From: Haliclona indistincta
Lineage: Eukaryota; Porifera; Demospongiae; Haplosclerida; Chalinidae
NCBI GenBank assembly: GCA_964017065.1
Contig: OZ024783.1
Span: 18,327,752 to 18,391,751, forward strand
Direction: 5' to 3'
DNA length: 64,000 bases
The notes below the pieces were generated by a model. It had not been told where the DNA came from. It saw only the letters and a program-made list of their open reading frames with translations, and did not search any database. The number at the start of each line of letters is the position of its first letter. The first letter of the stretch is position 1. A program made the position numbers and the translations under genes. This document shows, one piece after another, positions 1 through 40,728 of the stretch.

Positions 1-3000
1 GTTACGACACAGGTAGGTCAGTATACAAGCATGGTAATAGGCATGTGTGAGAGGTATGACACAGGGAGGTCAGTATACAAGCATGGTAGTAGACATGTGG
101 GTGTTGAGAGGTATGACACAGGTAGGTCAGTACACAAGCATGGTAGTAGACATGTGTGTGTTAAGAGGTATGACACAGGCAGGTCAGTATACAAGCATGG
201 TAGTAGACATGTGTGTGTTGAGAGTTACGACACAGGTAGGTCAGTATACAAGCATGGTAGTAGACATGTATGTGTTGAAATGTATGACACAGGTAGGTCA
301 GTATACAAGCATGGTAGTAGACATGTGTGTGTTGAGAGGTATGACACAGGTAGGTCAGTATGCAAGCATGGTAGTAGGCATGTGTGAGAGGTATGACACA
401 GGTAGGTCAGTATACAAGCATGGTAGTAGATATGTGTGTGAGGTATGACACAGGTAGGTCAGTATACAAGCATGGTAGTAGATATGTGTGAGAGGTATGA
501 CACAGGTAGGTCAGTATACAAGCATGGTAGTAGACATGTGTGTGTTGAGAGGTATGACACAGGTAGGTCAGTATACAAGCATGGTAGTAGATATGTGTGA
601 GAGGTATGACACAGGTAGGTCAGTATACAAGCATGGTAGTAGACATGTGTGTGTTGAGAGGTATGACACAGGTAGGTCAGTATACAAGCATGGTAGTAGA
701 CATGTGTGAGAGGTATGACACAGGTAGGTCAGTATACAAGCATGGTAGTAGACATGTGTGTGTTGAGAGGTACGACACAGGTAGGTCAGTATAAAAGCAT
801 GGCAGTAGACATGTGTGTGTTGAGAGGTATGACACAGGTATAGGTCAGTATACAAGCATGGTAGTAGACATGTGTGAGAGGTATGACACAGGTAGGTCAG
901 TATACAAGCATGGTAGTAGACATGTGTGTGAGGTACGACACAGGTAGGTCAGTATACAAGGATGGTAGTAGACATGTGTGTGTTGAGAGGTATGACACAG
1001 GTAGGTCAGTATACAAGCATGGTAGTAGACATGTGTGTGTTGGGAGGTATGACACAAGTAGGTCAGTATATAAGCGTGGTAGTAGACATGTGTGTGTTGA
1101 GAGGTATGACACAGGTAGGTCAGTATACAAGCATGGTAGTAGACATGTGTGTGTTGAGAGGTATGACACAGGTAGGTCAGTATACAAGCATGGTAGTAGA
1201 CATGTGTGTGTTGGGAGGTATGACACAGGTAGGTCAGTACACAAGCATGGTAGTAGACATGTGTGTGTTGAGAGGTATGACACAGGTAGGTCAGTTTACA
1301 AGCATGGTAGTAGACATGTGTGTGTTGAGAGGTATGACACAGGTAGGTCAGTATACAAGCATGGTAGTAGACATGTGTGTGTTGAGAGTTACGACACAGG
1401 TAGGTCAGTATACAAGCATGGTAGTAGACATGTGTGTGTTGAGAGGTATGACAAAGGTAGGTCAGTATACAAGCATGGTAGTAGACATGTGTGCGTTGAG
1501 AGGTATGACACAGGTAGGTCAGTATACAAGCATGGTAGTAGACATGTGTGAGAGGTACGACACAGGTAGGTCAGTATACAAGCATGGTAGTTGACATGTG
1601 TGTGAGGGATGACACAGGTAGGTCAGTATACAAGCATGGTAGTAGACTTGTGTGAGAGGTATGACACAGGTAGGTCAGTATACAAGCATGGTAGTAGACT
1701 TGTGTGAGAGGTATGACACAGGTAGGTCAGTATACAAGCATGGTAGTAGGCATGTGTGTGTTGAGAGGTATGACACAGGTAGGTCAGTATACAAGCATGG
1801 TAGTAGACATGTGTGTGTTGAGAGGTATGACACAGGTAGGTCAGTATACAAGCATGGTAGTAGACATGTGTGAGAGGTACGACACAGGTAGGTCAGTATT
1901 AAAGCATGGCAGTAGACATGTGTGTGTTGAGAGGTATGACACAGGTAGGTCAGTATACAAGCATGGCAGTAGATATGTGTGTGAGGTATGACACAGGTAG
2001 GTCAGTATACAAGCATGGTAGTAGACATGTGTGAGAGGTATGACACAGGCAGGTCAGTATACAAGAATGGTAGTAGGCATGTGTGTGTTGAGAGGTACGA
2101 CAAGGTAGGTCAGTATACAAGCATGGTAGTAGACATGTGTGTGAGGTATGACACAGGTAGGTCAGTATACAAGCATAGTAGTAGACATGTGTGTGTTGAG
2201 AGGTATGACACAGGTAGGTCAGTATACAAGCATGGTTGTAGACATGTGTGTGTTGAGAGGTATGACACAAGTAGGTCAGTATACAAGCATGGTAGTAGAC
2301 ATGTGTGAGAGGTAGGACAAAGGTAGGTCTGTATACAAGCATGGTAGTAGACATGTGTGTGAGGTACCACACAGGTAGGTTAGCATACAAGCATGGTAGT
2401 AGACATGTGTGTGTTGAGAGGTATGACACAGGTAGGTCAGTATACAAGCATGGTAGTAGACATGTGTGTGAGGTATGACACAGGTAGGTCAGTATACAAG
2501 CATGGTAGTAGACATGTGTGAGAGGTATGACACAGGTAGGTCAGTATACAAGCATGGTAGTAGACATGTGTGTGTTGAGAGGTATGACACAGGTAGGTCA
2601 GTATACAAGCATGGTAGTAGACATGTGTGTGAGGTACCACACAGGTAGGTCAGCATACAAGCATGGTAGTAGACATGTGTGTGTTGAGAGGTATGACACA
2701 GGTAGGTCAGTATACAAGCATGGTAGTAGACATGTGTGTGTTGAGAGGTATGACACAAGTAGGTCAGTATATAAGCGTGGTAGTAGATATGTGTGAGTGG
2801 TACGACACAGGTAGGTCAGTATACAAGCATGGTAGTAGACATGTGTGTGTTGAGAGGTATGACACAGGTAGGTCAGCATACAAGCATGGTAGTAGACATG
2901 TGTGTGTTGAGAGGTACGACACAGGTAGGTCAGTATACAAGCATGGTAGTAGGCATGTGTGTGAGGTATAACACAGGTAGGTCAGTATACAAGCATGGTA

Positions 3001-6000
3001 GTAGACTTGTGTGAGAGGTATGACACAGGTAGGTCAGTATACAAGCATGGTAGTAGACTTGTGTGAGAGGTATGACACAGGTAGGTCAGTATACAAGCAT
3101 GGTAGTAGACATGTGTGTGAGGAATGACACAGGTAGGTCAGTATACAAGCATGGTAGTAGACATGTGTGTGTTGTGAGGTATGACACAGGTAGGTCAGTA
3201 TACAAGCACGGTAGTAGGCATGTGTGTGAGGTATGACACAGGTAGGTCAGTATACAAGCATGGTAGTAGACTTGTGTGAGAGGTATGACACAGGTAGGTG
3301 AGTATACAAGCATGGTAGTAGACATGTGTGTGAGGAATGACACAGGTAGGTCAGTATACAAGCATGGTAGTAGACATGTGTGTGTTGTGAGGTATGACAC
3401 AGGTAGGTCAGTATACAAGCATGGTAGTAGACATGTGTGTGAGGAATGACACAGGTAGGTCAGTATATAAGCAAGGTAGTAGACATGTGTGTGTTGTGAG
3501 GTATGACACAGGTAGGTCAGTATACAAGCATGGTAGTAGATATGTGTGAGAGGTATGACACAGGTAGGTCAGTATACAAGCATGGTAGTAGACATGTGTG
3601 TGTTGAGAGATGTGACACAGGTAGGTCAGTATACAAGCATGGTAGTAGACATGTGTGTGAGGTACGACACAGGTAGGTCAGTATACAAGCATGGTAGTAG
3701 ACATGTGTGTGTTGAGAGATGTGACACAGGTAGGTCAGTATACAAGCATGGTAGTAGGCATGTGTGTGAGGTATGACACAGGTAGGTCAGTATACAAGCA
3801 TAGTAGTAGACATGTGTGTGTTGAGAGGTACGACACAGGTAGGTCAGTATACAAGCATGGTTGTAGACATGTGTGTGTTGAGAGGTATGACACAGGTAGG
3901 TCAGTATACAAGCATGGTAGTAGACATGTGTGAGAGGTAGGACACAGGTAGGTCAGTATACAAGCATGGTAGTAGGCATGTGTGTGAGGTATGACACAGG
4001 TAGGTCAGTATACAAGCATAGTAGTAGACAAGTGTGTGTTGAGAGGTATGACACAGGTAGGTCAGTATACAAGCATGGTTGTAGACATGTGTGTGTTGAG
4101 AGGTATGACACAAGAAGGTCAGTATACAAGCATGGCAGTAGACATGTGTGTGTTGAGAGGTATGACACAGGTAGGTCAGTATACAAGCATGGTAGTAGAC
4201 ATGTGTGAGAGGTAGGACACAGGTAGGTCAGTATACAAGCATGGTAGTAGACATGTGTGTGTTGAGAGGTATGACACAGGTAGGTCAGTATACAAGCATG
4301 GTAGTAGGCATGAGTGTGAGGTATAACACAGGTAGGTCAGTATACAAGCATGGTAGTAGACTTGTGTGAGAGGTATGACACAGGTAGGTCAGTATACAAG
4401 CATGGTAGTAGACTTGTGTGAGAGGTATGACACAGGTAGGTCAGTATACAAGCATGGTAGTAGGCATGTGTGTGAGGTATGACACAGGTAGGTCAGTATA
4501 CAAGCATGGTAGTAGATGTGTGTGTTGTGAGGTATGACACAGGTAGGTCAGTATACAAGCATGGTAGTAGACATGTGTGTGTTGTGAGGTATGACACAGG
4601 TAGGTCAGTATACAAGCATGGTAGTAGATGTGTGTGTTGTGAGGTATGACACAGGTAGGTCAGTATACAAGCATGGTAGTAGATATGTGTGAGAGGTATG
4701 ACACAGGTAGGTCAGTATACAAGCATGGTAGTAGACATGTGTGTGTTGAGAGGTACGACACAGGTAGGTCAGTATACAAGCATGGTAGTAGACATGTGTG
4801 AGAGGTATGACACAGGTAGGTCAGTATACAAGCATGGTAGTAGACATGTGTGTGTTGAGAGGTACGACACAGGTAGGTCAGTATACAAGCATGGTAGTAG
4901 ACATGTGTGTGTTGAGAGATATGACACAGGTAGGTCAGCATACAAGCATGGTAGTAGACATGTGTGTGAGGTACGACACAGGTAGGTCAGTATACAAGCA
5001 TGGTAGTAGGCATGTGTGTGAGGTATGACACAGGTAGGTCAGTATACAAGCATAGTAGTAGACATGTGTGTGTTGAGAGGTATGACACAGGTAGGTCAGT
5101 ATACAAGCATTGTAGTAGACATGTGTGTGTTGAGAGGCATGACACAGGTAGGTCAGTATACAAGCATGGTAGTAGACATGTGTGTGTTGAGAGGTATGAC
5201 ACAGGTAGGTCAGTATACAAGCATGGTAGTAGACATGTGTGTGAGGTATGACACAGGTAGGTCAGTATACAAGCATGGTAGTAGACATGTGTGCGAGGTA
5301 TGACACAGGTAGGTCAGTATACAAGCATGGTAGTAGACATGTGTGAGAGGTATGACACAGGTAGGTCAGTATACAAGCATGGTAGTAGACATGTGTGAGA
5401 GGTATGACACAGGTAGGTCAGTATACAAGCATGGTAGTAGACATGTGTGAGAGGTATGACACAGGTAGGTCAGTATACAAGCATGGTAGTAGACATGTGT
5501 GTGTTGAGAGGTATGACACAGGTAGGTCAGTATACAAGCATGGTAGTAGACATGTGTGAGAGGTATGACACAGGTAGGTCAGTATACAAGCATGGTAGTA
5601 GACATGTGTGTGTTGAGAGGTATGACACAGGTAGGTCAGTATACAAGCATGGTAGTAGACATGTGTGAGAGGTATGACACAGGTAGGTCAGCATACAAGC
5701 ATGGTAGTAGACATGTGTGTGTTGAGAGGTATGACACAGGTAGGTCAGTATACAAGCATGGTAGTAGACATGTGTGTGTTGAGAGGTATGACACAAGTAG
5801 GTCAGTATATAAGCGTGGTAGTAGACATGTGTGTGAGGTATAACACAGGTAGGTCAGTATACAAGCATGGTAGTAGATGTGTGAGTGGTACGACACAGGT
5901 AGGTCAGCATACAAGCATGGTAGTAGATATGTGTGAGAGGTATGACACAGGTAGGTCAGTATACAAGCATGGTAGTAGACATGTGTGTGTTGAGAGGTAC

Positions 6001-9000
6001 GACACAGGTAGGTCAGTATACAAGCATGGTAGTAGGCATGTGTGTGAGGTATAACACAGGTAGGTCAGTATACAAGCATGGTAGTAGACATGTGTGTTTT
6101 GAGAGGTATGACACAGGTAGGTCAGTATACAAGCATGGTAGTAGACATGTGTGAGAGGTATGACACAGGTAGGTCAGTATACAAGCATGGTAGTAGACAT
6201 GTGTGAGAGATATGACACAGGTAGGTCAGTATACAAGCATGGTAGTAGACATGTGTGTGAGGTACGACACAGGTAGGTCAGTATACAAGCATGGTAGTAG
6301 ATATGTGTGAGAGGTATGACACAGGTAGGTCAGTATACAAGCATGCATGGTAGTAGACATGTGTGTGAGGTATGACACAGGTAGGTCAGTATACAAGCAT
6401 GGTAGTAGATATGTGTGAGAGGTATGACACAGGTAGGTCAGTATACAAGCATGGTAGTAGACATGTGTGTGTTGAGAGGTATGACACAGGTAGGTCAGTA
6501 TACAAGCATGGTAGTAGACATGTGTGAGAGGTACGACACAGGTAGGTCAGTATACAAGCATGGTAGTAGACATGCATGTGTGTGTTGAGAGGCATGACAC
6601 AGGTAGGTCAGTATACAAGCATGGTAGTAGACATGTGTGTGTTGAGAGGTATGACACAGGTAGGTCAGTATACAAGCATGGTAGTAGACATGTGTGTGAG
6701 GTATGACACAGGTAGGTCAGTATACAAGCATGGTAGTAGACATGTGTGAGAGGTATGACACAGGTAGGTCAGTATACAAGCATGGTAGTAGACATGTGTG
6801 TGTTGAGAGGTATGACACAGGTAGGTCAGTATACAAGCATGGTAGTAGACATGTGTGTGTTGAGAGGTATGACACAGGTAGGTCAGTATACAAGCATGGT
6901 AGTAGACATGTGTGTGTTGAGAAGTATGACACAGGTAGGTCAGTATACAAGCATGGTAGTAGACATGTGTGTGTTGAGAGGTATGACACAAGTAGGTCAG
7001 TATATAAGCATGGTAGTAGGCATGTGTGTGAGGTATAACACAGGTAGGTCAGTATACAAGCATGGTAGTAGACATGTGTGTGTTGAGAGGTATGACACAG
7101 GTAGGTCAGTATACAAGCATGGTAGTAGACATGTGTGAGAGGTATGACACAGGTAGGTCAGTATACAAGCATGGTAGTAGACATGTGTGTGTTGAGAGGT
7201 ATGACACAGGTAGGTCAGTATACAAGCATGGTAGTAGACATGTGTTGAGAGGTATGACACAGGTAGGTCAGTATACAAGCATGGTAGTTGACATGTGTGA
7301 GAGGTATGACACAGGTAGGTCAGTATACAAGCATGGTAGTAGACATGTGTGTGTTGAGAGGTACGACACAGGTAGGTCAGTATACAAGCATGGTAGTAGA
7401 CTTGTGTGGTTGAGAGGTATGACACAAGTAGGTCAGTATACAAGCATGGTAGTAGACATGTGTGTGTTGAGAGGTATGACACAGGTAGGTCAGTATACAA
7501 GCATGGTAGTAGACATGTGTGAGAGGTACAACACAGGTAGGTCAGTATACAAGCATGGTAGTAGACATGTGTGAGAGGTATGACACAGGTAGGTCAGTAT
7601 ACAAGCATGGTAGTAGATATGTGTGAGAGGTATGACACAGGTAGGTCAGTAAACAAGCATGGTAGTAGACATGTGTGTGAGGTACGACACAGGTAGGTCA
7701 GCATACAAGCATGGTAGTAGACATGTGTGTGTTGAGAGGTACGACACAGGTAGGTCAGTATACAAGCATGGTAGTAGACATGTGTGTGTTGAGAGGTATG
7801 ACACAAGTAGGTCAGTATACAAGCATGGTAGTAGACATGTGTGAGAGGTACGACACAGGTAGGTCAGTATACAAGCATGGTAGTAGACATGTGTGTGTTG
7901 AGAGGCATGACACAAGTAGGTCAGTATACAAGCATGGTAGTAGACATGTGTGAGAGGTACGACACAGGTAGGTCAGTATACAAGCATGGTAGTAGACATG
8001 TGTGTGTTGAGAGGCATGACACAGGTAGGTCAGTATACAAGCATGGTAGTAGACATGTGTGTGTTGAGAGGTATGACACAGGTAGGTCAGTATACAAGCA
8101 TGGTAGTAGACATGTGTGTGAGGTATGACACAGGTAGGTCAGTATACAAGCATGGTAGTAGACATGTGTGAGAGGTATGACACAGGTAGGTCAGTATACA
8201 AGCATGGTAGTAGACATGTGTGTGTTGAGAGGTACGACACAGGTAGGTCAGTATACAAGCATGGTAGTAGACATGTGTGTGTTGAGAGGTATGACACAAG
8301 TAGGTCAGTATATAAGCATGGTAGTAGGCATGTGTGTGAGGTATAACACAGGTAGGTCAGTATACAAGCATGGTAGTAGACATGTGTGTGTTGAGAGGTA
8401 TGACACAGGTAGGTCAGTATACAAGCATGGTAGTAGACATGTGTGAGAGGTATGACACAGGTAGGTCAGTATACAAGCATGGTAGTAGACATGTGTGTGT
8501 TGAGAGGTATGACACAGGTAGGTCAGTATACAAGCATGGTAGTAGACATGTGTTGAGAGGTATGACACAGGTAGGTCAGTATACAAGCATGGTGGTTGAC
8601 ATGTGTGAGAGGTATGACACAGGTAGGTCAGTATACAAGCATGGTAGTAGACATGTGTGTGTTGAGAGGTACGACACAGGTAGGTCAGTATACAAGCATG
8701 GTAGTAGACATGTGTGGTTGAGAGGTATGACACAAGTAGGTCAGTATACAAGCATGGTAGTAGACATGTGTGTGTTGAGAGGTATGACACAGGTAGGTCA
8801 GTATACAAGCATGGTAGTAGACATGTGTGAGAGGTACAACACAGGTAGGTCAGTATACAAGCATGGTAGTAGACATGTGTGAGAGGTATGACACAGGTAG
8901 GTCAGTATACAAGCATGGTAGTAGACATGTGTGAGAGGTACGACACAGGTAGGTCAGTATACAAGCATGGTAGTAGACATGTGTGAGAGGTACGACACAG

Positions 9001-9688
9001 GTAGGTCAGTATACAAGCATGGTAGTAGACATGTGTGTGTTGAGAGGCATGACACAAGTAGGTCAGTATACAAGCATGGTAGTAGACATGTGTGTGTTGA
9101 GAGGTACGACACAGGTAGGTCTGTATACAAGCATGGTAGTAGACATGTGTGTGTTGAGAGGTATGACACAAGTAGGTCAGTATACAAGCATGGTAGTAGA
9201 CATGTGTGAGAGGTACGACACAGGTATGTCAGTATACAAGCATGGTAGTAGACATGTGTGTGTTGAGAGGCATGACACAGGTAGGTCAGTATACAAGCAT
9301 GGTAGTAGACATGTGTGTGTTGAGAGGTATGACACAGGTAGGTCAGTATACAAGCATGGTAGTAGACATGTGTGTGAGGTATGACACAGGTAGGTCAGTA
9401 TACAAGCATGGTAGTAGACATGTGTGAGAGGTATGACACAGGTAGGTCAGTATACAAGCATGGTAGTAGACATGTGTGTGTTGAGAGGTATGACACAGGT
9501 AGGTCAGTATACAAGCATGGTAGTAGACATGTGTGTGAGGTACCACACAGGTAGGTAAGCATACAAGCATGGTAGTAGACATGTGTGTGTTGAGAAGTAT
9601 GACACAGGTAGGTCAGTATACAAGCATGGTAGTAGACATGTGTGAGAGGTACGACACAGGTAGGTCAGTATACAAGCATGCATGGTAG
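1..9688 (+). repeat. Minisatellite array 1 (57/52-bp units, forward orientation)
   Basis: Tandem repeat filling the first 9.7 kb and continuing beyond the left edge, roughly 175 units. The core reads GAGGTATGACACAGGTAGG, then TCAGTATACAAGCATGGTAG, then TAGACATGTGTG. A 57-bp form ends in GTGTTGA; two 52-bp forms end in GT or GA. The forms are interspersed with scattered point variants (TATGAC/TACGAC, ACATG/ATATG/GCATG). A block near 7,000-7,600 recurs near 8,300-8,900 with an offset of 1,308 bp, so higher-order duplication is present. The array ends at CATGCATGGTAGCTCTGG, beside the downstream flank of ankyrin gene copy 1. Open frames here are period artefacts. Confidence 0.97.
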
Positions 9689-10380
9689 CTCTGGATCAGA
9701 ATAGATGAACAGTAAATGTCTAAGGCTCAACTCTTACTGTTAATCACAATCACAATTGTGATCACACAAATTCACACGAGAAAAGTGTCAAATTTGATGG
9801 TTGTCTCTCTCTCGTACACCACTACACTAGCTGAGCTTAGTAATATCAGTTCAAATGCACTTGCATACTGTCTGTTGGTTCATAAAGTGAGTGACTACAT
9901 TGGTTTGAACATGCTATTATCCTGGATGGTGGTAGTGATTACACTAACACAGAACAAATCCAGAACTGTTGCTAGAACCATTCCGTAAACCCTTAATTTG
10001 AACGTGACGGGCTTCAGACAGGCACGTTAGCACGATAGGCTTCCAGCAGGAGTATGACAAGCTTGAGCTACTCTATTTACACTAGTGCTAGAAGAGTTCT
10101 GGAACAATGCCCAGCGCTAATGTAAACACACTGTAAGATGGTGGACACAAGAGAGTGTGTGGCTAGCTCAGTCTCACCAGGTGTTGTGGGAGGGGCACCA
10201 GACTCACTGGACGGTTGAGTGGATGCTGAGAGAGAGAGAGAGATAATAAGAATTGGTTAGTAATAATTTATTTCTTATCTCAATAATTAGAGTAAGTCAT
10301 TACATGAGTATAGTATTAGTATGTTGACTATGGTAATAGTAGGTGTGGTCAGACTCTACAACACTTCATAGCTCAGTAGC
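9689..10380. other. Downstream flank of ankyrin gene copy 1 (unit 1 left edge)
   Basis: Single-copy sequence shared almost unchanged with 35,670-36,364 and 59,857-60,566. It holds a plus-strand open frame at 9,716-9,988 with a hydrophobic start (MSKAQLLLLITITIVI). The same start occurs in units 2 and 3, but there a 2-bp difference after the HTR codons breaks the frame, so I do not call it a gene. On the minus strand an AATAAA signal lies at 10,267-10,272, about 110 bp beyond the ankyrin stop codon. It is kept in unit 3 but altered to AATTAAA in unit 2. A short GA run lies at 10,228-10,242. Confidence 0.6.
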
Positions 10381-12942
10381 TCATGTTATCATGTACTGAC
10401 CAACTCTCTCCAGCAAGTCCACAATGTCTTGATGATTCCATTTTCTCGCTAGATCAAGTGGAGTCCTACCAACCTATAGTGTAACAATAGAACAGTGTGA
10501 GTCATGACACACACACAAACCAAAAATGAGAAATGGACTCAGTTAAGAAACAATGACTTTGCAATCAGTTCATTTCAATACATACTGTAACCAGAAACAC
10601 ACCCAAACTGCATAAACTGATTCTAACATAGCTTGAACCATACATGAACATAGACCCTTCCACACTCTCTGTGATATAGAATTTTATATGCGCAGATCTA
10701 CAAAATTCAATCATGCAAATCACTGTTTTTATGTGATGGTAACTACAGAACATGGTTTGGTAGCACAGAGGACAAGTATAGCTAACAAACACTTGGAATT
10801 AAGAACTCATATCTTCTTCAGAGTGGTACAGAGACACATGCAGGCTCATGTATCTACATGTATGGTATAATCTACAGTAAGCACTTTACGATAGTATAGT
10901 AGTTGTATTGTATTTCATGAGAACAGCTTTGTTCAACAACACAACATATCAGTATCACTAGAAACACATGTACTCACATCATCGGTTGTATCGGTAGCTG
11001 CACCAGCAGCAATCAGCTGCTCAGCTACAGCTGTGCGACCATTGATTGCACTCCAATGAAGTGCTGTCCATCCATCCTATAGAATAAACAACAAGAGAAG
11101 AGCACATGGTTATTGAGTGTGAAGTGGTGTCAAGCACAACACATGGTAACTGGTCTTGTTGGTAATAACACAGTAACTAGTGTATTACAGTATCAGATGA
11201 TGGCTTGTGTACCAGTACAGTATGACACATAGTGTCTACACATCACAGGAAATACTATTATTATTTGACATGTACTGCAATAGTCTACTAGTGGACGGAG
11301 CAAGCCAGAGCAAGAGAACAATGAGATTACTGTAGCACTGCAGTACACATGGTCTGGTATATCAGTGATTGTATTGTGACAAACAGACAGACAGATATTC
11401 TTAAAAGTACATTAGAAATTCTTCACCACAGCTAGTATACTGTCTGCTTAGGCAGTACATTACCATGGTATCAAAAGAGAATGCCTTCTTCAGCCCCTTC
11501 TCAAGAAGGCATAAAGCCGAAATGTCACAAGAACTGTTGTTTCGACTCTAACTTTCACCAAGCACATAGCAGTCGACCATAATTAGTTTATAGACAGACG
11601 ACAGAATGACAGACAGACAGATACACATGTGTGTGTATCTACTAACATACCACATCTCCAGCATTGATGTCTATCTCAGGTTGTGACAGGAGCAGTCGAA
11701 CAACCTGAGAGTGTCCATTCCGTGAGCTAGTGATAAGTGGTGTCAACTGTATAATAGTAGAGAATGATAACAACAACACAGTGATTATTAATAAACAATG
11801 CAACATTTTACATAATCAACTGTTGTTCAATATAGCAAGTCCCACACTGATCAAACAGTGTCCTCTGTGATGTATCTATCTATGCCTATACATCATTCCA
11901 TAAATGCTCTTGTGTTCTTATTGATTGGACAGTATTTTACCACATGTTGATCACACATTGTGTATTAGGCAGTCAGAGACTGAGCAAGTGCACAGATCAT
12001 CACAAGGCATTGTGTGTGGTTCTTCACGGCAGTAGAGCCGACCAACAAGAGTACACATGTTGAGACTGATGAACAGAGAGAGGACAGGCTACAGCTAGCA
12101 CATGATCGAAGCAACGATAAAATGGTGCTACTGAGACTGATCAACACAGCTCAGTAAATACCAGCTCAGATCATGCAGTCTGTTCTCACTCAGGCTCACC
12201 ACACACACCATTAATTTTATAGCCTGATCGATGCTGAGACAAAGTCAACTAGTTTGTTGTGAACCATGCTCTTCTTTGTCAGGTGTAACAACAATGTAGG
12301 GTGGGGCTAGCTCACATGTACAGTACATGTAGTCAATGATGGACACACTAACAGACATACAGAACCAAATGCTCAACCACTGACTGTGTGTGGTAGTAGA
12401 TACTGATGTGTGGATCTGTTACTAGCATCATGTGACCACTAACAATACTCACATTGTAATAATCAGGATTACAATAGTTGACATGAGCTCCTCTTGTAAG
12501 GAGCTCACTCACTCTACTGACATTACCATCCCTGCAAGCGTCAAAGAGTTCCTTATTCTGTGAGTAGAGCACAACATAATGTAAGCAGCATCATGCAAAC
12601 AATGGTTGCTACATGCAGTCTCCATCAACTACTGATCACATGATCAAACTCATTAATATTCATGAGATACAGTATCCTCAGTGTAGGGCACGCGAGGCGG
12701 CGGCTACTATGTCGTGTACACAGAGAGCGGCTCCTTGTGGACTGCACTACAGCAGCTAGCCTTCTGAACCGGACTGAGCCACCCGCCCCGCCCCAGGAGT
12801 ACGGGCATGGGCTCAACCAGCTCTCGCTCGCTCGTACCACAGCTTATTGCGGGACAGTGCTAGTAGAATACAGTATTCTCTCTCTTACCAACTTGCGCTG
12901 CTGTTCCTCGCTGAGAGAACTCATGGCACTAGTAGACTGCAT
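10381..12942 (-). CDS. Small ankyrin-repeat protein, copy 1 (five exons, complete)
   Basis: The exons on the minus strand are 12942-12890, 12557-12453, 11746-11651, 11076-10978 and 10473-10381, all joined in phase 0 with GT-AG introns. The product is about 148 residues: a charged N-terminus (MQSTSAMSSLSEEQQRKL; a second start lies at 12924), a cap repeat (NKELFDACRDGNVSRVSELL), then ankyrin repeats with TPLITSS, TALHWSA and TPLDLAR motifs, ending QYMIT. Each internal exon carries one repeat, split between consensus positions 2 and 3. There is no signal peptide or membrane segment, so an intracellular binding protein is inferred; the partner is unknown. Unit 2 lacks the upstream start, so the inner ATG is probably the ancestral one. 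Compared with copies 2 and 3 the exons differ far more than the introns. Confidence 0.85.
11965..12160 (+). other. Conserved open frame inside intron 2 of ankyrin copy 1, opposite strand
   Basis: A plus-strand frame of about 57 codons reads ...VEPTNKSTHVETDEQ then REDRLQLAHDRSNDKMVLL and RLINTAQ before TAA. It stays open in units 2 (near 37,940-38,112) and 3 (near 63,165-63,345) with a few amino-acid changes. The end vaguely resembles half of an ankyrin repeat (LQLAHDR.ND.MVLLRLI). The minus strand is also open over about 60 codons. I cannot show that either is used; the conservation may only reflect recent duplication. Confidence 0.25.
12690..12815 (-). promoter_or_regulatory. GC-rich island in ankyrin intron 1
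   Basis: A CpG-containing stretch in otherwise AT-rich sequence, present in all three units (about 38,625-38,745 and 63,855-63,980). On the minus strand it contains the GC-box-like motif GGGGCGGGGCGGG. It lies within the first intron, just after the short coding exon 1. It might be an intronic enhancer or an alternative promoter. Evidence is compositional only. Confidence 0.25.
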
Positions 12943-13189
12943 CAAATCAGAGATCACTGAGAGAAGGGGCGTGTATCATGAATATCAGTATACTGTTATA
13001 AAATTTGATTTATTTTAATTGAACAAAATAATTTTAAAGCACATCATTTTTTATCCGGTTCAAAATCCGGTTTATCCGTTATATTTGTTTTGACTGATAC
13101 TTACTTTTGAGGCCTAGACTTAATAATAAATTATAAATCCACTAATGACAAATAATATTATACTAAAATTAATACTAGCAGGCTATCTG
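12943..13189. other. Intergenic: ankyrin copy 1 upstream region
   Basis: AT-rich sequence between the ankyrin start and the ABCB7-like remnant, containing TTATAAAATTTG and other A/T runs. It presumably holds the ankyrin promoter. No element was recognised with confidence. Confidence 0.4.
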
Positions 13190-14449
13190 TCTCTTATGCT
13201 CCAATACTGTACTACTGGTCGCTCTATGATGTGGTAGAGATGTGTGTTGTTTGGACCATAGTTAAGTATTATTATAGTGAGTGAGGGTTTGATAACAAGT
13301 GATAGTGTGATTCTCTCTCAATGATCCTGCCATCTTGACCCAGTACTAGTATCTCATCAGCATCCACTATACTGGACAGACGATGAGCAATGAAGATTGA
13401 AGTGCGATCATGAGCTGTGATCTGACACATTGCACTCAATATATGCTACAGCACAACAGAGATATCAGATTAATACTCACTCATCATAAGTTACTTCCTC
13501 CCTCACCTGTTCAGTGATGGAGTCCATGCAGTGATGATGTAGCTTCATCATACACTAGTATTGGTGCATTCTTCAACACTGCTCTGGCTATGGCTACTCT
13601 CTGCTTCTCACCTCCTGCAAGAGAGGGATAACAAGGAGTGAGAGAGAGAATTATTCTGATATACTTAGACTGTCCCTTGTAAGAAAGTTAGTCTATACTC
13701 ATGCAAAGTATAGCTATATAATACCAATAATATTCAGTATTGTCTCCTAGCTAGGCTTGAGCCGATTACAGTGCTATCATAATTTTGGCATTTTCGGCAC
13801 TATAAAGCATCGAGCATAATAGGTACAATTTCCTGCAAATGACATCATTCAATGGGCGTGGTGGTAGGCCTGTGCTATAAAATGGCGGCAAGCTAGAGCA
13901 CGTGCACGAGTGTAGATCTAGTCATAGATCATAGATCTAGTCTAGTCGTAGACTCTGCAGACATTAGCGACGATGACGAACTGTAGCTTCATCATACACT
14001 AGTATCGGTGCATTCTTCAACACTGCTCTGGCTATGGCTATACTCTCCGCTGCTTCTCACCTCCTGCAAGCTAAGCAGGCTAGACTGCAGAGCTAGGTTA
14101 ACAAGGAGTGAGACGGACTGATACTTAATTAGACTATCCCTTGTAAGATAGTTTGCCTATACTATACTCATGCAAAGTAGAATACCAATAATATTCAGTA
14201 TTGTCTCCATGCCTGATAGCTATAGTTTGAGCCCTCTCTCACTCATATTGTAGTGGCATCCCTTCAATAGCTCTCTTGAGTCCAGCTATCTCAATGGCGT
14301 TCATCACCTCCTCATCACTAGCTGATAGGTTACCATATGATACATTATAGAGGATTGTGTTATGGAACAGCACACTGTCCTGAGGGACCACTCCGATACT
14401 CCTCCGTAAGCTATCAAGAGTGATGTTCCTAATGTCCTCTCCTCCTGCT
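13190..14449 (-). pseudogene. ABCB7/ATM1-like ABC transporter remnant, copy 1
   Basis: The 3' exons of a mitochondrial ABCB7-type half transporter (family role: glutathione/Fe-S precursor export) are recognisable. A Q-loop exon (14449-14239) reads GGEDIRNITLDSLRRSIGVV, then PQDSVLFHNTILYNVSYGN, and stops early after MPLQYE. A signature/Walker B exon (13614-13507) has [13 protein letters not shown] and [10 protein letters not shown], followed by a 4-bp insertion relative to unit 2. The last exon (13445 down) has [23 protein letters not shown] and ERGSH, and stops at NPHSL (13272-13274). The membrane domain and Walker A exons, expected at higher coordinates, are absent. A second partial copy of the signature exon lies at 13985-14075. 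This is clearly a decayed gene. Confidence 0.85.
13985..14220 (-). repeat. Internal duplicate of the ABC signature exon and its intron
   Basis: This segment repeats most of 13,545-13,750: the coding strand of the GGEKQ/Walker B exon followed by the ACAAGGAGTGAGA and CAATAATATTCAGTATTGTC intron stretch. It carries small indels that break the frame. The equivalent duplicate is in unit 2 at about 40,729-40,945, so it predates the large duplication. Confidence 0.7.
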
Positions 14450-14896
14450 CTGATCGTGAGTCATTACTGTTGAATTATTCAAGAGCCTCTCAGCTACACT
14501 TGTGTATTGTAAATTTGTAGATGAGAGAAAATTGTCAAAATTTTGTTACTGAATTTTGTAAATTAGGTGATAAAGCTGACTAGTTAACTTATTCATAAAA
14601 CAACTGTAAATCTCATTATGTAGTTATGACATTTGAAAGCCCCTGACATGAGCTACCATGCCTGACGTACCCCTATATACATCGGTTTCAGCGGTGAAAT
14701 ATATCCCGTGTTACCCTATTTTCTTCGTATAACCATTATTAATTAGTAAATTTCCATAAAATTAAGTAATGGTGTATATTAGTATACTAAACAACACGCA
14801 CAAATTAGCTTCCTGCATCTGGGATCCGGAATACATGTTTGAACACCTTGCACTAGATGCATGATGGGTATACTGGTAGTAATGCATGCTACAGTA

Positions 14897-15327: not shown

Positions 15328-15496
15328 GATAATAGATTCAAGATAGAATCAGTGATAAACGAGTCAGCCATGTGTCATGCACGGCCTTTTATGAGTTGTT
15401 GTTTTCCACACAAAATGGTTTTTCACATTTATAGCTAGTTCTGCATATGCAATTAATTGCTCCTTGGTTTGCATGACTCTTTAATTGCTCTTTCAG

Positions 15497-17209
15497 TTGA
15501 GCTTTGACAGTAACCCTGAGACACACGGAGTGGACAGAAACCGCTACACTGACTACGAGGTTAAGATGAAGGTCAGTCATTAGATACCGAGTGGTGGGTT
15601 TCTGTGAGCGATAGAAACCGAGGCTAACCATCCCAAGATACTACAGGAAGTACATGTACAGATGATGTGTAGGTGTGCCCTAGCTAGCAGACTCCCAGTC
15701 TAACCCAGAGGGGCTCTCCCAGTGGATTAGACCCTTGACCTTCCTGTGTGTTGTCTATAGCATGATCTCTTTCAGTTGATCATTGAGTGGGAAGGTACAC
15801 TACTGATGACTAGTATTCATTAAATTCAGCTTCCTCTAAAACTCCATATCACTATACTATATACAACTTATATGGACCACCATAATGCAATATTGTAGCT
15901 ATGTCTGAGTAGTAGTGGTATTTGTAAACTCGTGTTCAGCGATGTCGATCATATGCGCTGATGTTTGAATGTGTTTGGTGATATTCTGTCATCTTGCAAT
16001 GCCGAAGGGAAAACCATGAGTGTCACCTTCATGTACTAATGTGTTCAGTCTCTGATCATTCTCCATCGTGTGAATAAAGACAACAGTGACTTTATGTAAA
16101 ACTTCAATCACTTTAAATAGTCAGCCTCTACTGCTTTCTGTGTAAGACTGAATTCATACATTAGTGCTCGAAGGTGATGCTTTACTTTGTATTTTGTTAG
16201 AAGACAGTAAATTTTTTTGAGCTATGATGGAGGTCGAGGTGACTGTCTAGGCATAGCTAGACCTTTGTTAGATTAACAAGTAGTGGTGTGAAATGGTTCT
16301 GCAATTTAGTAACTTGCTTAGCAAATCAACAGCGACCTTTCACAAAATGTACGTACATGTGGGTTAGTATTATTGTCTGACAAGCAGCTTTCTTGTCATG
16401 GGCAGGGAGGTATGGTGTTAGGGCAGGGAGGACCGTGATTCAAGGGACAACATAGTAACAGCCTTTGAGTGTACAGTAAACCGCCTTTAACCCTTGCATC
16501 CGGTGAGAATCAGCCTAAAGCTATCTGTAGGCAACTCTCATGAGCTTATCCACCTTGAAAATCTAATTTTGGTTTGGTATCGTGTGCTTCACTCACAACT
16601 GGACTTCATCAAATCACTAGTTTCTTCCTCTATTTAAACTCGAGCTGTCAACTCTTCCTTTTTAACTACTCATTAGCACAGGTTGCTATTCATCATTTCA
16701 CATATTTTGGAAAATAAGTCTCTTTTTGTCTCTCTGCCTTTCCAATCCTAGTTACATGTACGTCCCTATAATAATTGTCTTGGAACAATTTATCATTGTG
16801 TCAGTGGATATTTCCAGCTGACGACAGACAAGCCCTCTCAGTATAACTATGATATGTACTCTATAATCTCTACTATAGACTAATATACCAGTGTTTAAGC
16901 TGAAGGAGTGTTCGAGTCGTAGACGATATCGTGATTTTGAATGGCTCAAGAAAGAACTAGAGAGAGATAGCAAGGTATGTTGCCATGTGTTAGACAGACC
17001 CTGTAACATCATGTTGTCCTCTACAGATCGTTGTTCCTCCTCTTCCTGGCAAAGCTTTCAAGAGACAACTACCATTTAGAGGAGATGAAGGTAACCCCGC
17101 CCCCTCTCATACCTTGCATGAGTGTATATATTATTGTGTGTAGGTCTATTCGATGATGACTTTATTGAAGAACGAAGGAAAGGATTGGAAGAGTTTGCCA
17201 ACAAGTTAG

Positions 17210-17271
<62 letters not shown>

Positions 17272-20200
17272 TCATATGCACCACACGAGGGGCTGAAATC
17301 TCGTATGCTGACTGGTGAAATCACGATTATAATCTTAGTATTTTTTCCTGTATATGCATTTTCTGTATAATTATAATAACACTGAAATGTCGTACCTCTC
17401 AACACACACATGTCTACTACCATGCTTGTATACTGACCTACCTGTGTCATACCTCTCAACACACACATGTCTACTACCATGCTTGTATACTGACCTACCT
17501 GTGTCATACCTCTCAACACACACATGTCTACTACCATGCTTGTATACTGACCTACCTGTGTCATACCTCTCAACACACACATTCTTGTATACTGACCTAC
17601 CTGTGTCATACCTCTCACACACACATGTCTACTACTACCATGCTTGTATACTGACCTACATGTGTCGTACCTCTCAACACACACATGTCCACTACCATGC
17701 TTGTATACTGACCTACCTGTGTCGTACCTCTCAACACACACATGTCTACTACCATGCTTGTATACTGACCTACCTGTGTCATACCTCACACACATGTCTA
17801 CTACCATGCTTGTATACTGACCTACCTGTGTCATACCTCTCACACATGTCTACTACCATGCATGTATACTGACCTACCTGTGTCATACCTCACACACATG
17901 TCTACTACCATGCTTGTATACTGACCTACCTGTGTCATACCTCACACACATGTCTACTACCATGCTTGTATACTTACCTACCTGTGTCGTACCTCTCAAC
18001 ACACACATGTCTACTACCATGCTTGTATACTGACCTACCTGTGTCGTACCTCTCAACACACATGCCTGCTACCATGCTTGTATACTGACCTACCTGTGTC
18101 ATACCTCACACACATGTCTACTACCATGCTTGTATACTGACATACCTGTGTCGTACCTCTCAACACACACATGTCTACTACCATGCTTGTATACTGACCT
18201 ACCTGTGTCGTACCTCTCAACACACACATGTCTACTACCATGCTTGTATACTGACATACCTGTGTCGTACCTCTCAACACACACATGTCTACTACCATGC
18301 TTGTATACTGACCTACCTGTGTCATACCTCACACACATGTCTACTACCATGCTTGTATACTGACATACCTGTGTCGTACCTCTCAACACACACATGTCTA
18401 CTACCATGCTTGTATACTGACCTACCTGTGTCGTACCTCTCAACACACATGCCTGCTACCATGCTTGTATACTGACCTACCTGTGTCATACCTCACACAC
18501 ATGTCTACTACCATGCTTGTATACTGACATACCTGTGTCGTACCTCTCAACACACACATGTCTACTACCATGCTTGTATACTGACATACCTGTGTCGTAC
18601 CTCTCAACACACACATGTCTACTACCATGCTTGTATACTGACCTACCTGTGTCGTACCTCTCAACACACACATGTCTACTACCATGCTTGTATACTGACA
18701 TACCTGTGTCGTACCTCTCAACACACACATGTCTACTACCATGCTTGTATACTGACCTACCTGTGTCATACCTCACACACATGTCTACTACCATGCTTGT
18801 ATACTGACATACCTGTGTCGTACCTCTCAACACACACATGTCTACTACCATGCTTGTATACTGACCTACCTGTGTCGTACCTCTCAACACACATGCCTGC
18901 TACCATGCTTGTATACTGACCTACCTGTGTCATACCTCACACACATGTCTACTACCATGCTTGTATACTGACATACCTGTGTCGTACCTCTCAACACACA
19001 CATGTCTACTACCATGCTTGTATACTGACCTACCTGTGTCATACCTCACACACATGTCTACTACCATGCTTGTATACTGACCTACCTGTGTCATACCTCA
19101 CACACAGGTCTACTACCATGCTTGTATACTGACATACCTGTGTCGTACCTCTCAACACACATGTCTACTACCATGCTTGTATACTGACCTACCTGTGTCA
19201 TACCTCACACACATGTCTACTACCATGCTTGTATACTGACATACCTGTGTCGTACCTCTCAACACACACATGTCTACTACCATGCTTGTATACTGACCTA
19301 CCTGTGTCGAACCTCTCAACACACATGCCTGCTACCATGCTTGTATACTGACCTACCTGTGTCATACCTCACACACATGTCTACTACCATGCTTGTATAC
19401 TGACCTACCTGTGTCATACCTCACACACATGTCTACTACCATGCTTGTATACTGACCTACCTGTGTCATACCTCACACACATGTCTACTACCATGCTTGT
19501 ATACTGACCTACCTGTGTCGTACCTCTCAACACACACATGTCTACTACCATGCTTGTATACTGACCTACCTGTGTCATACCTCACACACATGTCTACTAC
19601 CATGCTTGTATACTGACATACCTGTGTCGTACCTCTCAACACACACATGTCTACTACCATGCTTGTATACTGACATACCTGTGTCGTACCTCTCAACACA
19701 CACATGTCTACTACCATGCTTGTATACTGACCTACCTGTGTCGTACCTCTCAACACACACATGTCTACTACCATGCTTGTATACTGACATACCTGTGTCG
19801 TACCTCTCAACACACACATGTCTACTACCATGCTTGTATACTGACCTACCTGTGTCATACCTCTCAACACACACATGTCTACTACCATGCTTGTATACTG
19901 ACCTACCTGTGTCGTACCTCACACACATGTCTACTACCATGCTTGTATACTGACCTACCTGTGTCGTACCTCACACACATGTCTACTACCATGCTTGTAT
20001 ACTGACCTACCTGTGTCGTACCTCTCAACACACATGTCTACTACCATGCTTGTATACTGACCTGCCTGTGTCGTACCTCTCAACACACTCATGTCTACTA
20101 CCATGCTTGTATACTGACCTACCTGTGTCATGCCTCACACACACGTCTACTACCATGCTTGTATACTGACCTACCTGTGTCGTACCTCTCAACACACATG

Positions 20201-21775
20201 TCTACTACCATGCTTGTATACTGACCTGCCTGTGTCGTACCTCTCAACACACACATGTCTACTACCATGCTTGTATACTGACCTACCTGTGTCATACCTC
20301 ACACACATGTCTACTACCATGCTTGTATACTGACCTACCTGTGTCATACCTCACACACATGTCTACTACCATGCTTGTATACTGACCTACCTGTGTCATA
20401 CCTCACACACATGTCTACTACCATGCTTGTATACTGACCTACCTGTGTCATACCTCACACACATGTCTACTACCATGCTTGTATACTGACCTACCTGTGT
20501 CGTACCTCACACACATGTCTACTACCATGCTTGTATACTGACCTACCTGTGTCATACCTCACACTCATGTCTACTACCATGCTTGTAGACTGACCTACCT
20601 GTGTCATACCTCACACACATGTCTACTACCATGCTTGTATACTGACCTACCTGTGTCATACCTCACACACATGTCTACTACCATGCTTGTATACTGACCT
20701 ACCTGTGTCATACCTCACACACATGTCTACTACCATGCTTGTATACTGACCTACCTGTGTCGTACCTCACACACATGTCTACTACCATGCTTGTATACTG
20801 ACCTACCTGTGTCATACCTCACACACATGTCTACTACCATGCTTGTATACTGACCTACCTGTGTCATACCTCACACACATGTCTACTACCATGCTTGTAT
20901 ACTGACCTACCTGTGTCATACCTCACACACATGTCTACTACCATGCTTGTATACTGACCTACCTGTGTCATACCTCACACACATGTCTACTACCATGCTT
21001 GTATACTGACCTACCTGTGTCGTACCTCACACACATGTCTACTACCATGCTTGTTTACTGACCACTATCACAGTATTATGTGTCGTGGTTTACATAGTGA
21101 ATTCCTGTGGTACCATGTGTGGTATGATAATCTTTAATTTCCTCATGACTGCATGCTTCCAAATGTGAATTGTTCTCAAGTGAATTGTTCTCAAGTTGAA
21201 ATTGTTTGTAAACTCTTTATGTCTCACTTTTGAGATCACGTGATGTGATTTGAACCATGCAATTATTGTAACCTGTGGCTATCCTGTACTAAACAGTATT
21301 AGGGATCTTATATAAACTATCAATACACATGTACCAGCTTCACCGGTATTCTAAAGTGATTATCCAGTGTGAGTAGGCACGCAAGGCTTAAGCATTTGGG
21401 TTTGCCAATCAGTTGGTATGTGTGACATCAAAACACGGGCGTTTACAGCTTGAAAGCCTCCGTAAAACAGCTCTTATTCCTTGAAATTTGTGCAAGTCAT
21501 CTGTAGAGTACTGTGGCTATATCTTTCTGATACCTATGCTGTGCACAGGGGTGTTTTCTATGAACCCTAGGAATTAACTCCACTATACTGAAATAGCCCC
21601 TATTATTAGCTTTATAATAATTATAATCCCGCCATGTGTTAATCATGTGTTGCTTCTCTACTGTAGGATTGCTGGTCATCCATTAGCTCAGAATGAACGG
21701 TGTTTACACATGTTCCTGCAAGAGTCTGTAATTGATAGGAATTATGTTCCCGGGAAAGTGCGTAGTAACCATTGA
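15497..21775 (+). CDS. SNX3: Sorting nexin 3-like PX-domain protein, copy 1 (N-terminal exon not found)
   Basis: Exons: 15497-15571 (LSFDSNPETHGVDRNRYTDY then EVKMK), 16879-16974, 17027-17090, 17144-17204 and 21667-21775. They join in frame and give nearly the whole SNX3 PX domain: TNIPVFKLKECSSRRRYRDF (the RRY.DF phosphoinositide-binding motif), then VVPPLPGKAF, FRGDEG, FIEERRKGLE and AGHPLAQNERCLHMFLQ, ending VPGKVRSNH before TGA. SNX3 binds PI3P on early endosomes and acts in retromer-linked recycling. The first roughly 30 residues of the family are not visible upstream, so the gene may be 5'-truncated or its first exon may be unrecognised. The last intron (4.5 kb) is mostly minisatellite. 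An AATAAA lies at 22,197-22,202. Convergent with the ROCO-like gene. Confidence 0.85.
15572..16878. other. SNX3 intron with an old MITE-like copy
   Basis: This is the intron after the first visible SNX3 exon. Positions about 16,010-16,205 resemble the 186-bp element (shared TCCATCGTGTGAATAA core, inverted ends GTGTCACCTTCATG / CGAAGGTGATGC). One copy of TCTGCCTTTCCAATCC at about 16,735-16,751 is the single-copy precursor of the 17-bp array in unit 2. Confidence 0.6.
17213..17270. repeat. (CA)n microsatellite
   Basis: An almost perfect CA run of about 56 bp, just after the SNX3 exon 4 donor (AACAA|GTTAGTCACAC). In unit 2 the same place (about 44,395-44,440) is interrupted by CTTACACAAA. Confidence 0.95.
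17389..21063 (-). repeat. Minisatellite array 2 in SNX3 intron (reverse orientation)
   Basis: About 68 units of the family of array 1, inverted: ACCTCTCAACACACACATG, then TCTACTACCATGCTTGTATA, then CTGACCTACCTGTGTC. 57-bp units predominate on the left. From about 20,280 to the right end nearly all are 52-bp units. The variant GCCTGCTACCATG recurs near 18,064, 18,450, 18,893 and 19,326, showing block duplication of about 390-450 bp. The array lies entirely between SNX3 exons 4 and 5. Confidence 0.97.
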
Positions 21776-25300: not shown

Positions 25301-25932
25301 AAAGATACTGTAGTGGAGCTATTCTTGTTGTTGGCACACACAGCCATGTCAAACCTCTATACACTGCAATCCCGCTAGAAGTTGCCATTGTCCAGCCCTC
25401 TACGAGCGATTGGTTCCCCTTGTGACGTCACGTATCACTCCGCCCAATTCAGGAACAATAGTCGGTTCACCAACAGTAACTAAAATAATTTTTATGTCGT
25501 TTTTGAGCTGACCACTGCTGATTTCTTTCTCTTTTATCACTGAAATCTATACCACTGAAACTATATAGTTTAATGAAAACTAATATTTTTATTTTGGCAT
25601 GAAAGCTCCCTTTAACTACCACAAAAATGTTTTTAATGGGTTGAAGTACCCTCGAAAACTATCGAAATTTAATCAAAGTCCGTTAAGCATACATAGCATA
25701 CCATGTCAAGCATTCTGTCAGGAGTGAGCTCCTCCCACTCCACATCCTCAGAATTATCGTCTCCTACTATGATGGAACATGATGGTGGCTCAGCAACGCC
25801 AGTGCTATGGCGCTCCAAAGCAGGGGGTCGACCCATGGCTAGATCAATAACCGATGTCTTCCCGGTAGCTGGAGGACCTTGCGTTGTCACATTAGAGATT
25901 TCGACAGTGACGTTATAGCCCAGCTTGTCCAT
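22346..25932 (-). CDS. ROCO-like GTPase with C-terminal death domain, copy 1
   Basis: Four coding exons on the minus strand: 25932-25702 (exon opens at 25949), 24548-22826, 22769-22707 and 22653-22346. They join in frame to give about 774 residues. The P-loop GPPATGKTS is at residues 19-27, a RHSTG switch I-like segment follows near 41-45, and the G3 motif DSGGQ is at about 161-165. GTFADR near 252-257 sits where G4 is expected but is not N/TKxD. A COR-like winged-helix region follows (WFGFYLSLL ... FFHNLNLILHY ... NLKPIHDLVSLLI). The end is a death domain (DVLAEIRSVNHWKELGLQLG ... LSAWLQQQDN ... WRVLRAAL). The start ATG at 25932 has a strong context (GCCATGG), but a longer N-terminus is possible. 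An intracellular signalling role through death-domain contacts is inferred. The exact family is uncertain; the GTPase/death-domain layout is clear. Confidence 0.85.
24606..25565. mobile_element. Inverted-repeat element of about 960 bp in ROCO-like intron 1
   Basis: Ends of about 55 bp are inverted copies: left TATAGTTTCAGTGGAGTAGA and, reading inward from the right on the other strand, TATAGTTTCAGTGGTATAGA. No transposase is seen, so it is probably a non-autonomous DNA transposon. It is present in both units (52,548-53,498), so it was inserted before the duplication. Confidence 0.7.
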
Positions 25933-25980
25933 GGCTTCATCATTGCTAACTGTAGAGAGGAAGGATCAGAGTAGCTATGA

Positions 25981-39146: not shown

Positions 39147-39809
39147 CTATCTGTCTCTATGCTCCAATACTGTACTACTGGTCGCTCCATGATGTGGTAG
39201 AGATGTGTGTTGTTTGGACCATAGTTCAGTATATAGTGAGTGAGGGTTTGATAACAAGTGATAGTGTGATCCTCTCTCAATGATCCTGCCATCTTGACCC
39301 AGTACTAGTATCTCATCAGCATCCACTATACTGGACAGACGATGAGCAATGAAGATTGAAGTGCGGTCATGAGCTGTGATCTGACACATTGCACTCAATA
39401 TATGCTACAGCACAACAGAGATAACATATCAGATTAATACTCACTCATCATAAGTTACTTCCTCCCTCACCTGTTCAGTGATGGAGTCCAGTGATGATGT
39501 AGCTTCATCATACACTAGTATTGGTGCATTCTTCAACACTGCTCTGGCTATGGCTACTCTCTGCTTCTCACCTCCTGCAAGAGAGGGATAACAAGGAGTG
39601 AGAGAGAGATACTTAGACTGTCCCTTGTAAGAAAGTTAGTCTATACTCATGCAAAGTATAGCTATATAATACCAATAATATTCAGTATTGTCTCCTAGCT
39701 ATAGGCTTGAGCCGATTACAGTGCTAGCAGCATAATGCTAGCATAATAGGTACAATTTCCTGCAAATCATGTGACGTCATTTAATGGGCGTGGTGGTAGG
39801 CCTGTGCTA

Positions 39810-40622: not shown

Positions 40623-40728
40623 GTGCTAAAATGGCGGCAAGCTCGAGCACGAGTACGTGTAGATCGAGGTGTAGATCTATAGCTAGTATGATCTAGTAGA
40701 CTCTGCAGACATTAGCGACGATGACGAA

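Follow-up and report, generated by a model that had tools for sequence, protein, structure and literature searches.

Probable strong diversifying selection at the predicted ligand-contact surface of tandem ankyrin genes in the sponge Haliclona indistincta

Described relatives and the tandem ankyrin genes

The principle of a repeat protein that changes at a few surface positions is known from fungal NLRs and brown-algal ROCO genes, and the tandem ankyrin genes of the sponge Haliclona indistincta analyzed here appear to follow it with an architecture and a strength that look new. Three such genes (copies 1, 2 and 3), all on the minus strand and one per tandem unit at a spacing of 24–26 kb, lie in a stretch of 64,000 nucleotides, hereafter the window (C1:18327752-18391751, in a 144-Mb genome of 46 contigs). 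The best explanation, to which a probability of about 0.78 can be given, is that these are germline genes for ankyrin-Roc-COR-Death receptors in which the ligand-contact surface of the ankyrin repeats is driven by very strong diversifying selection.

In the available text on the fungal NLRs of Podospora (PMC4986451), the repeats (ankyrin, TPR and WD) resemble those of the sponge in that positive selection acts on a few positions of each repeat, for the most part those of the concave face, and leaves the rest conserved, and non-self recognition is proposed for these domains. The fungal proteins differ in being NACHT or NB-ARC STANDs that vary between repeats and between alleles of one locus, whereas here it is tandem genes that vary, each with its repeats on separate exons and with a predicted Roc-COR-Death body. 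The Pfam scan of four segments of the sponge gene found no NACHT or NB-ARC match and the fold matches Roco, so an NLR/STAND receptor was ruled out. The brown-algal LRR-ROCO genes, candidate immune receptors in the parts of PMC11378527 at hand, share the Roco body, one repeat per exon in constant phase and selected residues on the ligand face. They differ in carrying LRRs, in having no Death domain described there and in gaining diversity through exon shuffling and alternative splicing, and four sites per repeat are selected in them compared with 5–7 significant codons per exon here. As a type for the sponge genes the brown-algal ROCO was rejected, since one repeat per exon holds but the repeats are ankyrin and not LRR.

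As far as the accessible portion of PMC6337361 describes it, DAPK1, in the Death-domain group of Roco proteins, combines Roc-COR and Death without LRR, and the sponge genes probably share this combination. The same four-segment scan of the sponge gene gave no kinase match and the predicted start codon stands immediately ahead of the ankyrin repeats, on which grounds an assignment to DAPK1 was ruled out; the sponge genes differ further in forming a large tandem family with a hypervariable ankyrin surface. In DAPK1 the ankyrin repeats precede Roc, as they do here. Designed ankyrin libraries are randomized at repeat positions 2, 3, 5, 13 and 14. According to the sections available of two reports (PMC8683736, PMC8229355), the randomized positions make up the binding face of a fixed framework, and a fixed framework is also found here; the sponge genes are natural and germline-encoded, and they vary also at 10 and 16, but not at 33. 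Finally, in the snake-venom process called Accelerated Segment Switch in Exons to alter Targeting (ASSET), surface exon segments change radically while introns stay similar, as here, but the available text (PMC2711939) describes swaps of whole segments by an unknown mechanism, whereas the changes here are isolated codons explained by point substitution. A search of literature titles and abstracts, with subscription journals mostly outside it, found, among the papers listed, no description of animal ankyrin-Roc-COR-Death arrays with hypervariable ankyrin exons, and in a word search of the main text of a sponge NLR paper (PMC12909245) ankyrin and Roco were absent and Ank occurred once.

Divergence and selection in the ankyrin exons

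Between copies 1 and 2, exons 3, 4 and 5 (11651–11746, 10978–11076 and 10401–10473 in copy 1; 37622–37717, 36949–37047 and 36385–36457 in copy 2) differ at 15 of 96, 14 of 99 and 13 of 73 bases, or 42 of 268 in sum. Introns 1–4 differ at 8 of 306, 11 of 686, 13 of 570 and 4 of 491 bases, and the 250 bases past exon 5, which hold intron 5, exon 6 and a bit of intron 6, at 2 of 244, which together make 38 of 2297 (1.65%). The roughly tenfold excess of exon over intron divergence given in a preliminary description of the locus is therefore confirmed. Its count of about 41 exon differences was close, although the length is 268 and not 288 bp, and its figure of about five differing bases in some 500 of intron 4 was nearly right, but its estimate of about two synonymous changes in exons 3–5 was too low, path averaging giving about 4.3 of the 42. 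The 13 changes in exon 5 do fall in six codons, with 18 rather than 25 codons unchanged, as the exon consists of 24 codons and one base. Copy 3 (exons 3–5 at 62840–62935, 61163–61261 and 60587–60659) shows a like pattern, its 268 bases differing at 30 sites from those of copy 1 and at 29 from those of copy 2.

The three ankyrin genes are part of larger tandem arrays on one chromosome. Probes taken from the introns had at least 56 and at least 61 matches in the genome, every one on C1, and a probe for exon 5 had at least 40, of which 39 were on C1; 17 of these exon 5 matches belong to array A (16.48–17.41 Mb), 19 to array B (18.25–19.01 Mb, two of them fragments) and 4 lie elsewhere. The probe counts are lower bounds, with scoring limited to the best candidates. 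Exons were extracted via flanking intron motifs with 3–4 mismatches tolerated, a procedure that misses divergent exons, and at standard length array B yielded 15 exons 3, 16 exons 4 and 16 exons 5 and array A yielded 13 exons 4 and 13 exons 5. The codon tables leave out exons 4 of a length other than 99 bases (102 in gene g12; 105 and 101 in array A) and one frame-shifted array B exon 5 of 71 bases (g14). Rate and likelihood analyses cover 14 of the 17 array B genes (all but g12, g13 and g14), as does the test of linkage among variable codons. Intron alignments leave out introns of 2600 bases or more (g08 intron 3), and flank comparisons include the 15 exons 3, 29 exons 4 and 27 exons 5 having both flanks.

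Exon 5, for example, has the fixed framework xGxTPLDxARxxNHQDIVDLLERV, with near-random codons at x. For the 20 codons chosen by eye as variable, the pooled proportion of nonsynonymous differences (pN) is 0.51 and the ratio of nonsynonymous to synonymous change (dN/dS) counted inside them is 4.0, while the 69 framework codons have a pN of 0.024, a proportion of synonymous differences (pS) of 0.061 and a dN/dS of 0.39; all 89 codons pooled give 1.86. By counting, nonsynonymous change at variable codons amounts to about 13 times framework synonymous change (Jukes-Cantor values of 0.51 over 0.061). A per-site likelihood test clocked by introns 3 and 4, from which both tree and rate were taken, placed the nonsynonymous rate (beta) above 1 at 23 of the 89 codons (likelihood ratio statistic > 3.84), and 18 codons still exceed the intron rate after Bonferroni correction, a variability beyond chance; e3-5 is borderline, and 19 codons pass with rounded values. 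These 18 comprise six codons in exon 3 (e3-1, 6, 9, 10, 31 and 32), seven in exon 4 (e4-1, 3, 8, 11, 12, 14 and 33) and five in exon 5 (e5-1, 3, 8, 11 and 12). Their median beta is 61 relative to the intron rate, or 74 with kappa 4, and about 60-fold is an upper-end figure because the introns are not one clock. Framework codons and GTPase exons are under purifying selection, the Roc-COR exon as tested in one pair: copies 2 and 3 have a pN/pS of 0.37 in the Roc-COR exon and 0.31 in the P-loop exon, and these low values mean that the contrast in rates lies within one gene.

The ankyrin register was taken from an alignment of the spliced copy 1 domain with solved chains of designed ankyrin proteins. 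In this register the codons at positions 2, 3, 5, 13 and 14 number 13 and are all significant, compared with 5 of the 76 elsewhere (p = 6e-12), and these five lie at positions 10 and 16 (four codons) and 1 (one codon). The aligned designed chain itself differs between its repeats at positions 2, 3, 5, 13 and 14 and a few others. By this register the variable codons occupy the predicted ligand-contact surface, in agreement with the preliminary description, which had placed the changed residues mostly at contact positions. Among the positions it listed, 2, 3, 5, 10, 13, 14 and 16 are variable in array B, as is position 1 at one junction and more weakly at another, but position 33 is not: array B exon 3 has 14 R and one G there and exon 4 has T in 16 of 16, the change being private to copy 1. 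There is thus good support for strong diversifying selection in a protein family of recognition type, while the targeted mutation and block conversion proposed beside it fare worse, and the position of the variable residues suggests that the surface may serve recognition.

The variable codons differ even between genes with closely similar surroundings. When 150 bases on either side of each exon were used as a measure of recency, the share of variable codons that differ was flat, from 0.74 to 0.89, across all classes of flank distance. The exon 5 sequences of g02 and copy 1 are identical in the framework and in 300 flank bases, but 5 of 6 variable codons have changed. Among four exon 5 genes chosen for near-identical flanks (copies 1 and 2, g02 and g06), there is one change in 298 flank bases and one in 55 framework bases, compared with at least 22 changes in the 18 bases of the variable codons.

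Gene body, repeats and neighboring features

The N-terminal part of the product is an ankyrin repeat domain with one repeat per exon, and the spliced copy 1 protein matches PF00023 in four stretches at 76.0 bits (cut-off 21.1) and PF12796 at 76.2 bits (cut-off 27.3). Exon 1 of copy 1 (12889–12924) carries the start ATG (MSSLSEEQQRKL); its counterparts lie at 38820–38855 in copy 2 and just outside the window, at C1:18391763-18391795, in copy 3. The first ankyrin repeat is in exon 2 (12453–12557, 38408–38509 and 63636–63734 in copies 1, 2 and 3), the end of which differs in length among genes. Exon 6 (10178–10225, 36168–36215 and 60360–60407) encodes a Ser/Thr/Pro-rich linker that runs from phase 1 to phase 1 in copy 1 and ends in phase 1 in copy 2, with splice sites placed by eye in both. 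Just upstream of exon 1, at 12881–13281, copies 1 and 2 diverge by 11% and 6% per 200 bases, and by 0–1% over the next 400 bases upstream; the promoters are possibly diverging as well.

In copies 2 and 3 the ankyrin exons are followed downstream, without a change of strand, by P-loop, Roc-COR and Death exons. In copy 2, where splice sites were again placed by eye, these are a P-loop exon (25702–25949) with the sequence GPPATGKTS, which fits the motif GxxxxGK[ST], a Roc-COR exon (22826–24548) with a DSGGQ motif and a type I Death exon (22346–22653); in copy 3 the corresponding open frames are at 53637–53912, 50739–52490 and 50316–50615, the last of type II. The phases fit: phase 1 is shared by the end of exon 6 and the starts of the P-loop and Death exons, the latter being in phase too. 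Joining the P-loop exon to the Roc-COR exon keeps the frame and gives LDM-VCETIE, and public relatives read uninterrupted through LDMVCETIE. The join from exon 6 to the P-loop exon would cross about 10 kb, mostly minisatellite, and all these exons probably form one transcript.

An AlphaFold model (predicted local distance difference test score 76.2) was used for a public relative, P0009, which is 82% identical to the Roc-COR exon of the window. All 21 of its Foldseek matches in the PDB at E <= 0.001 are LRRK1, LRRK2 or bacterial or archaeal Roco proteins, with query TM-scores of 0.32–0.48. These matches show a Roco fold, a Roc GTPase adjoining COR, for the modeled relative rather than for the window protein. 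P0009 itself scores 26.1 bits for COR-A with no Roc match in Pfam, and many relatives carry a precomputed PF16095. The Roc-COR exon has at least 77 matches in the genome, four of those listed with a stop, and the array B proteins matched at full length are mostly 89–97% identical to copy 2. In two other loci, which represent another family, ankyrin repeats and Roc share a single open frame (L006:988-3222 and L008:961-3210), with Roc above the Pfam cut-off, and the listed ankyrin matches are dense on C1 at 0.2–5.8 Mb and on C5 at 1.1–1.4 Mb; this genome may contain a very large superfamily of ankyrin-Roc genes.

The C-terminal exon probably encodes a Death domain. Between copies 2 and 3 it differs with a pS of 0.31 and a pN of 0.20, far above its surroundings, over about 400 bases. 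For array B, which has at least 11 Death exons, ten were compared (L069–L076 and window positions 22346–22653 and 50316–50615); they fall into three types with 6, 3 and 1 members, which differ by about 19–34% in DNA, and at least 150 related Death exons occur genome-wide. Output modules may be exchanged in this way among otherwise similar genes.

Most of the putative intron between exon 6 and the P-loop exon of copy 2 is filled by a 57-bp minisatellite on the plus strand (28231–35669), with equivalents in the same orientation at 6–9680 in copy 1 and 56896–59400 in copy 3 and in reverse orientation at 17388–21063 and 44549–48444. In copies 1 and 2, minisatellites of inverted orientation thereby stand on both sides of the ankyrin cassette, and for copy 3 one side falls within the window. 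The 39-base core of the minisatellite has 1005 forward and 161 reverse occurrences genome-wide, and among the core matches listed the first, at C1:18243992, coincides with the start of array B. At 13300–14500 and 39200–41100 there are minus-strand fragments, the former (copy 1) with a 4-base insertion relative to copy 2, that are possibly decayed and that we take to read like an ABC transporter. Plus-strand exons recognized by eye at 15490–17210, where the unit is more diverged, read like a PX-domain sorting nexin.

Weighing the explanations

Several features of the variable codons would suit a dedicated mutation process, such as hypermutation or template-directed mutagenesis aimed at them: the changes are clustered as whole codons, several codons are saturated at their first two bases and yet keep a single third base (NNT in 29 of 29 for e5-1), and pairs with near-identical flanks are as variable as distant pairs. 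It should be noted, however, that simulated single-base substitution driven by the amino acid (200 runs) gives a ratio of third- to first- and second-position variability of 0.56, identical to that observed, reproduces the share of two- and three-base codon differences and yields 2.4 ± 1.3 sites with an invariant third base where 4 are observed. When one synonymous rate is shared by the 18 codons, the best value is about the intron rate; rates from 0.1 times (the lowest tried) to twice the intron rate lie within 2 log units, four times is worse by 2.5 and eight times by 7.7, and a model of mutation only (alpha = beta) is 52 log units worse. Array B pairs with the same residue at a variable codon encode it differently in 19 of 334 cases (5.7%), compared with 66% if codons were randomized and with 361 of 7563 (4.8%) in the framework, and the array A figures are 18 of 184 at variable and 329 of 2833 at framework codons, with 55% expected under randomization; this low switching is owed partly to shared descent. 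Synonymous change within the variable codons stays at background, on which ground targeted mutation that ignores the amino acid was rejected; a dedicated process in general is very improbable, although no search aimed at a mutator enzyme or at a copy serving as template was made. Targeted mutagenesis of the diversity-generating retroelement type, which the NNT, NNG and NNC codons had suggested, was ruled out by the match of simulated point substitution and the synonymous rate of about the intron value. Relaxed constraint, with pseudogenes or ankyrin exons that no longer matter, could point to the frame-shifted exon 5 of 71 bases in array B and to the stop in 4 of the 77 listed Roc-COR matches, but a framework dN/dS of 0.39 denotes purifying selection and the variable codons far exceed the neutral rate, beyond what relaxation can give, which leaves this explanation with almost no probability.

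A number of observations weigh against very strong diversifying selection on Roc-COR-Death receptor genes, or against the size of its effect. The ratio varies with the yardstick, from 1.86 for all codons and 4.0 inside the variable codons to about 13 against framework synonymous change. Mean divergence in array B is 0.036, 0.071, 0.039 and 0.039 for introns 1–4, and over the 250 bases past exon 5 it reaches 0.18, with a median of 0.082. Synonymous sites of the framework change about twice as fast as the introns, and support in the intron tree is low (14–87). Between 28 and 31% of intron site pairs are incompatible, and two pairwise homoplasy index tests gave p values of 0.89 (9 sites, 11 genes) and 0.055 (18 sites, 7 genes), with too few sites to decide; some recombination between array copies is likely. 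In exon 4 the framework pS exceeds the median flank 3.3-fold in array A (0.21 compared with 0.064) and 2.6-fold in array B (0.098 compared with 0.038, the flank means being 0.07–0.09), which makes the exon 4 ratio the least certain, and introns may be constrained or homogenized around this exon. Identical codons amount to 0.18 observed compared with 0.14 simulated, and 2.5% of the 200 runs reach 0.18. As for the gene body, the Roc-COR exon of the window scores 15.6 bits for COR-A (PF16095, cut-off 35.3), with no Roc (PF08477) match in the Pfam scan of that exon, and the Death exon scores 22.4 bits for PF00531, just below the cut-off of 22.6 (E 1.4e-4).

Some of these observations fit a history like that of the MHC, in which old exon variants persist under balancing selection and recombination or conversion makes the introns look young, inflating the ratio. 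The doubled framework synonymous rate, the excess in exon 4 and the incompatible intron sites favor it, as do two array A/B exon 4 pairs that differ at 2 of 296 and 2 of 292 flank bases and at 9 and 13 framework bases; the first of these (C1:17092057 and C1:18252249) lies about 1 Mb apart. Against it, the exon 5 framework of array B is no older than its flanks (pS 0.029; flank median 0.10), g02 and copy 1 differ in exon 5 at variable codons only, synonymous change within variable codons is low too, and variable and framework codons interleave every few bases, so that no single tract could renew one kind without the other. Such a history is a tentative possibility and could act alongside diversifying selection on the contact surface. 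Short-tract gene conversion or exon shuffling among paralogues, which would recycle an existing pool of variable codons, is unlikely: words do recur (e.g., the exon 5 word RRYN, which copies 2 and 3 share with g02), the intermixing of three Death-exon types in array B suggests that exchange may occur at the scale of exons, and concerted evolution is proposed for fungal ankyrin NLR repeats in the available text of PMC4986451, but the tracts would need to be about one codon long and strong selection would still be needed for the pool to arise. Linkage among variable codons was not found within exons (p 0.45) or within 2 codons (p 0.25) in array B, nor between nearby codons in 20 tests across both arrays (sum p 0.17), all at modest power. 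Block conversion is not supported, as nearby variable codons are unlinked and one pair alike in flanks and framework differs at 5 of 6. A rather improbable variant is a germline library of DARPin-like binders with a GTPase and exchangeable Death exons, renewed by codon-scale exchange or editing among the copies of the array, perhaps helped by the inverted minisatellites beside the ankyrin cassettes, with selection keeping only the outcomes that change an amino acid.

Under diversifying selection on tandem receptor genes, recent duplications of the 24–26-kb unit would have yielded the genes, and selection would fix amino-acid-changing point mutations at about 18 ankyrin surface codons while introns, framework codons and the GTPase change at ordinary low rates. 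The product would be a receptor of cytosolic type, with N-terminal ankyrin repeats, a Roc-COR GTPase and a C-terminal Death domain. Each gene may bind a different partner through its variable surface, binding may switch the Roc-COR unit, and the Death domain may then signal in immunity or self/non-self recognition.

If this explanation is true, Haliclona indistincta has a large germline family of candidate recognition receptors in which ankyrin repeats on a Roc-COR-Death body take the place of LRRs on NACHT. The locus would provide a quantitative case of selection outrunning mutation, at about 13 to 60 times background depending on the yardstick, and germline selection and dedicated diversification become testable against each other by sequencing families or several individuals. 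The frozen framework and saturated contact codons would amount to a natural map of the binding positions of ankyrin repeats, and this split would open a direct route to what these receptors recognize.

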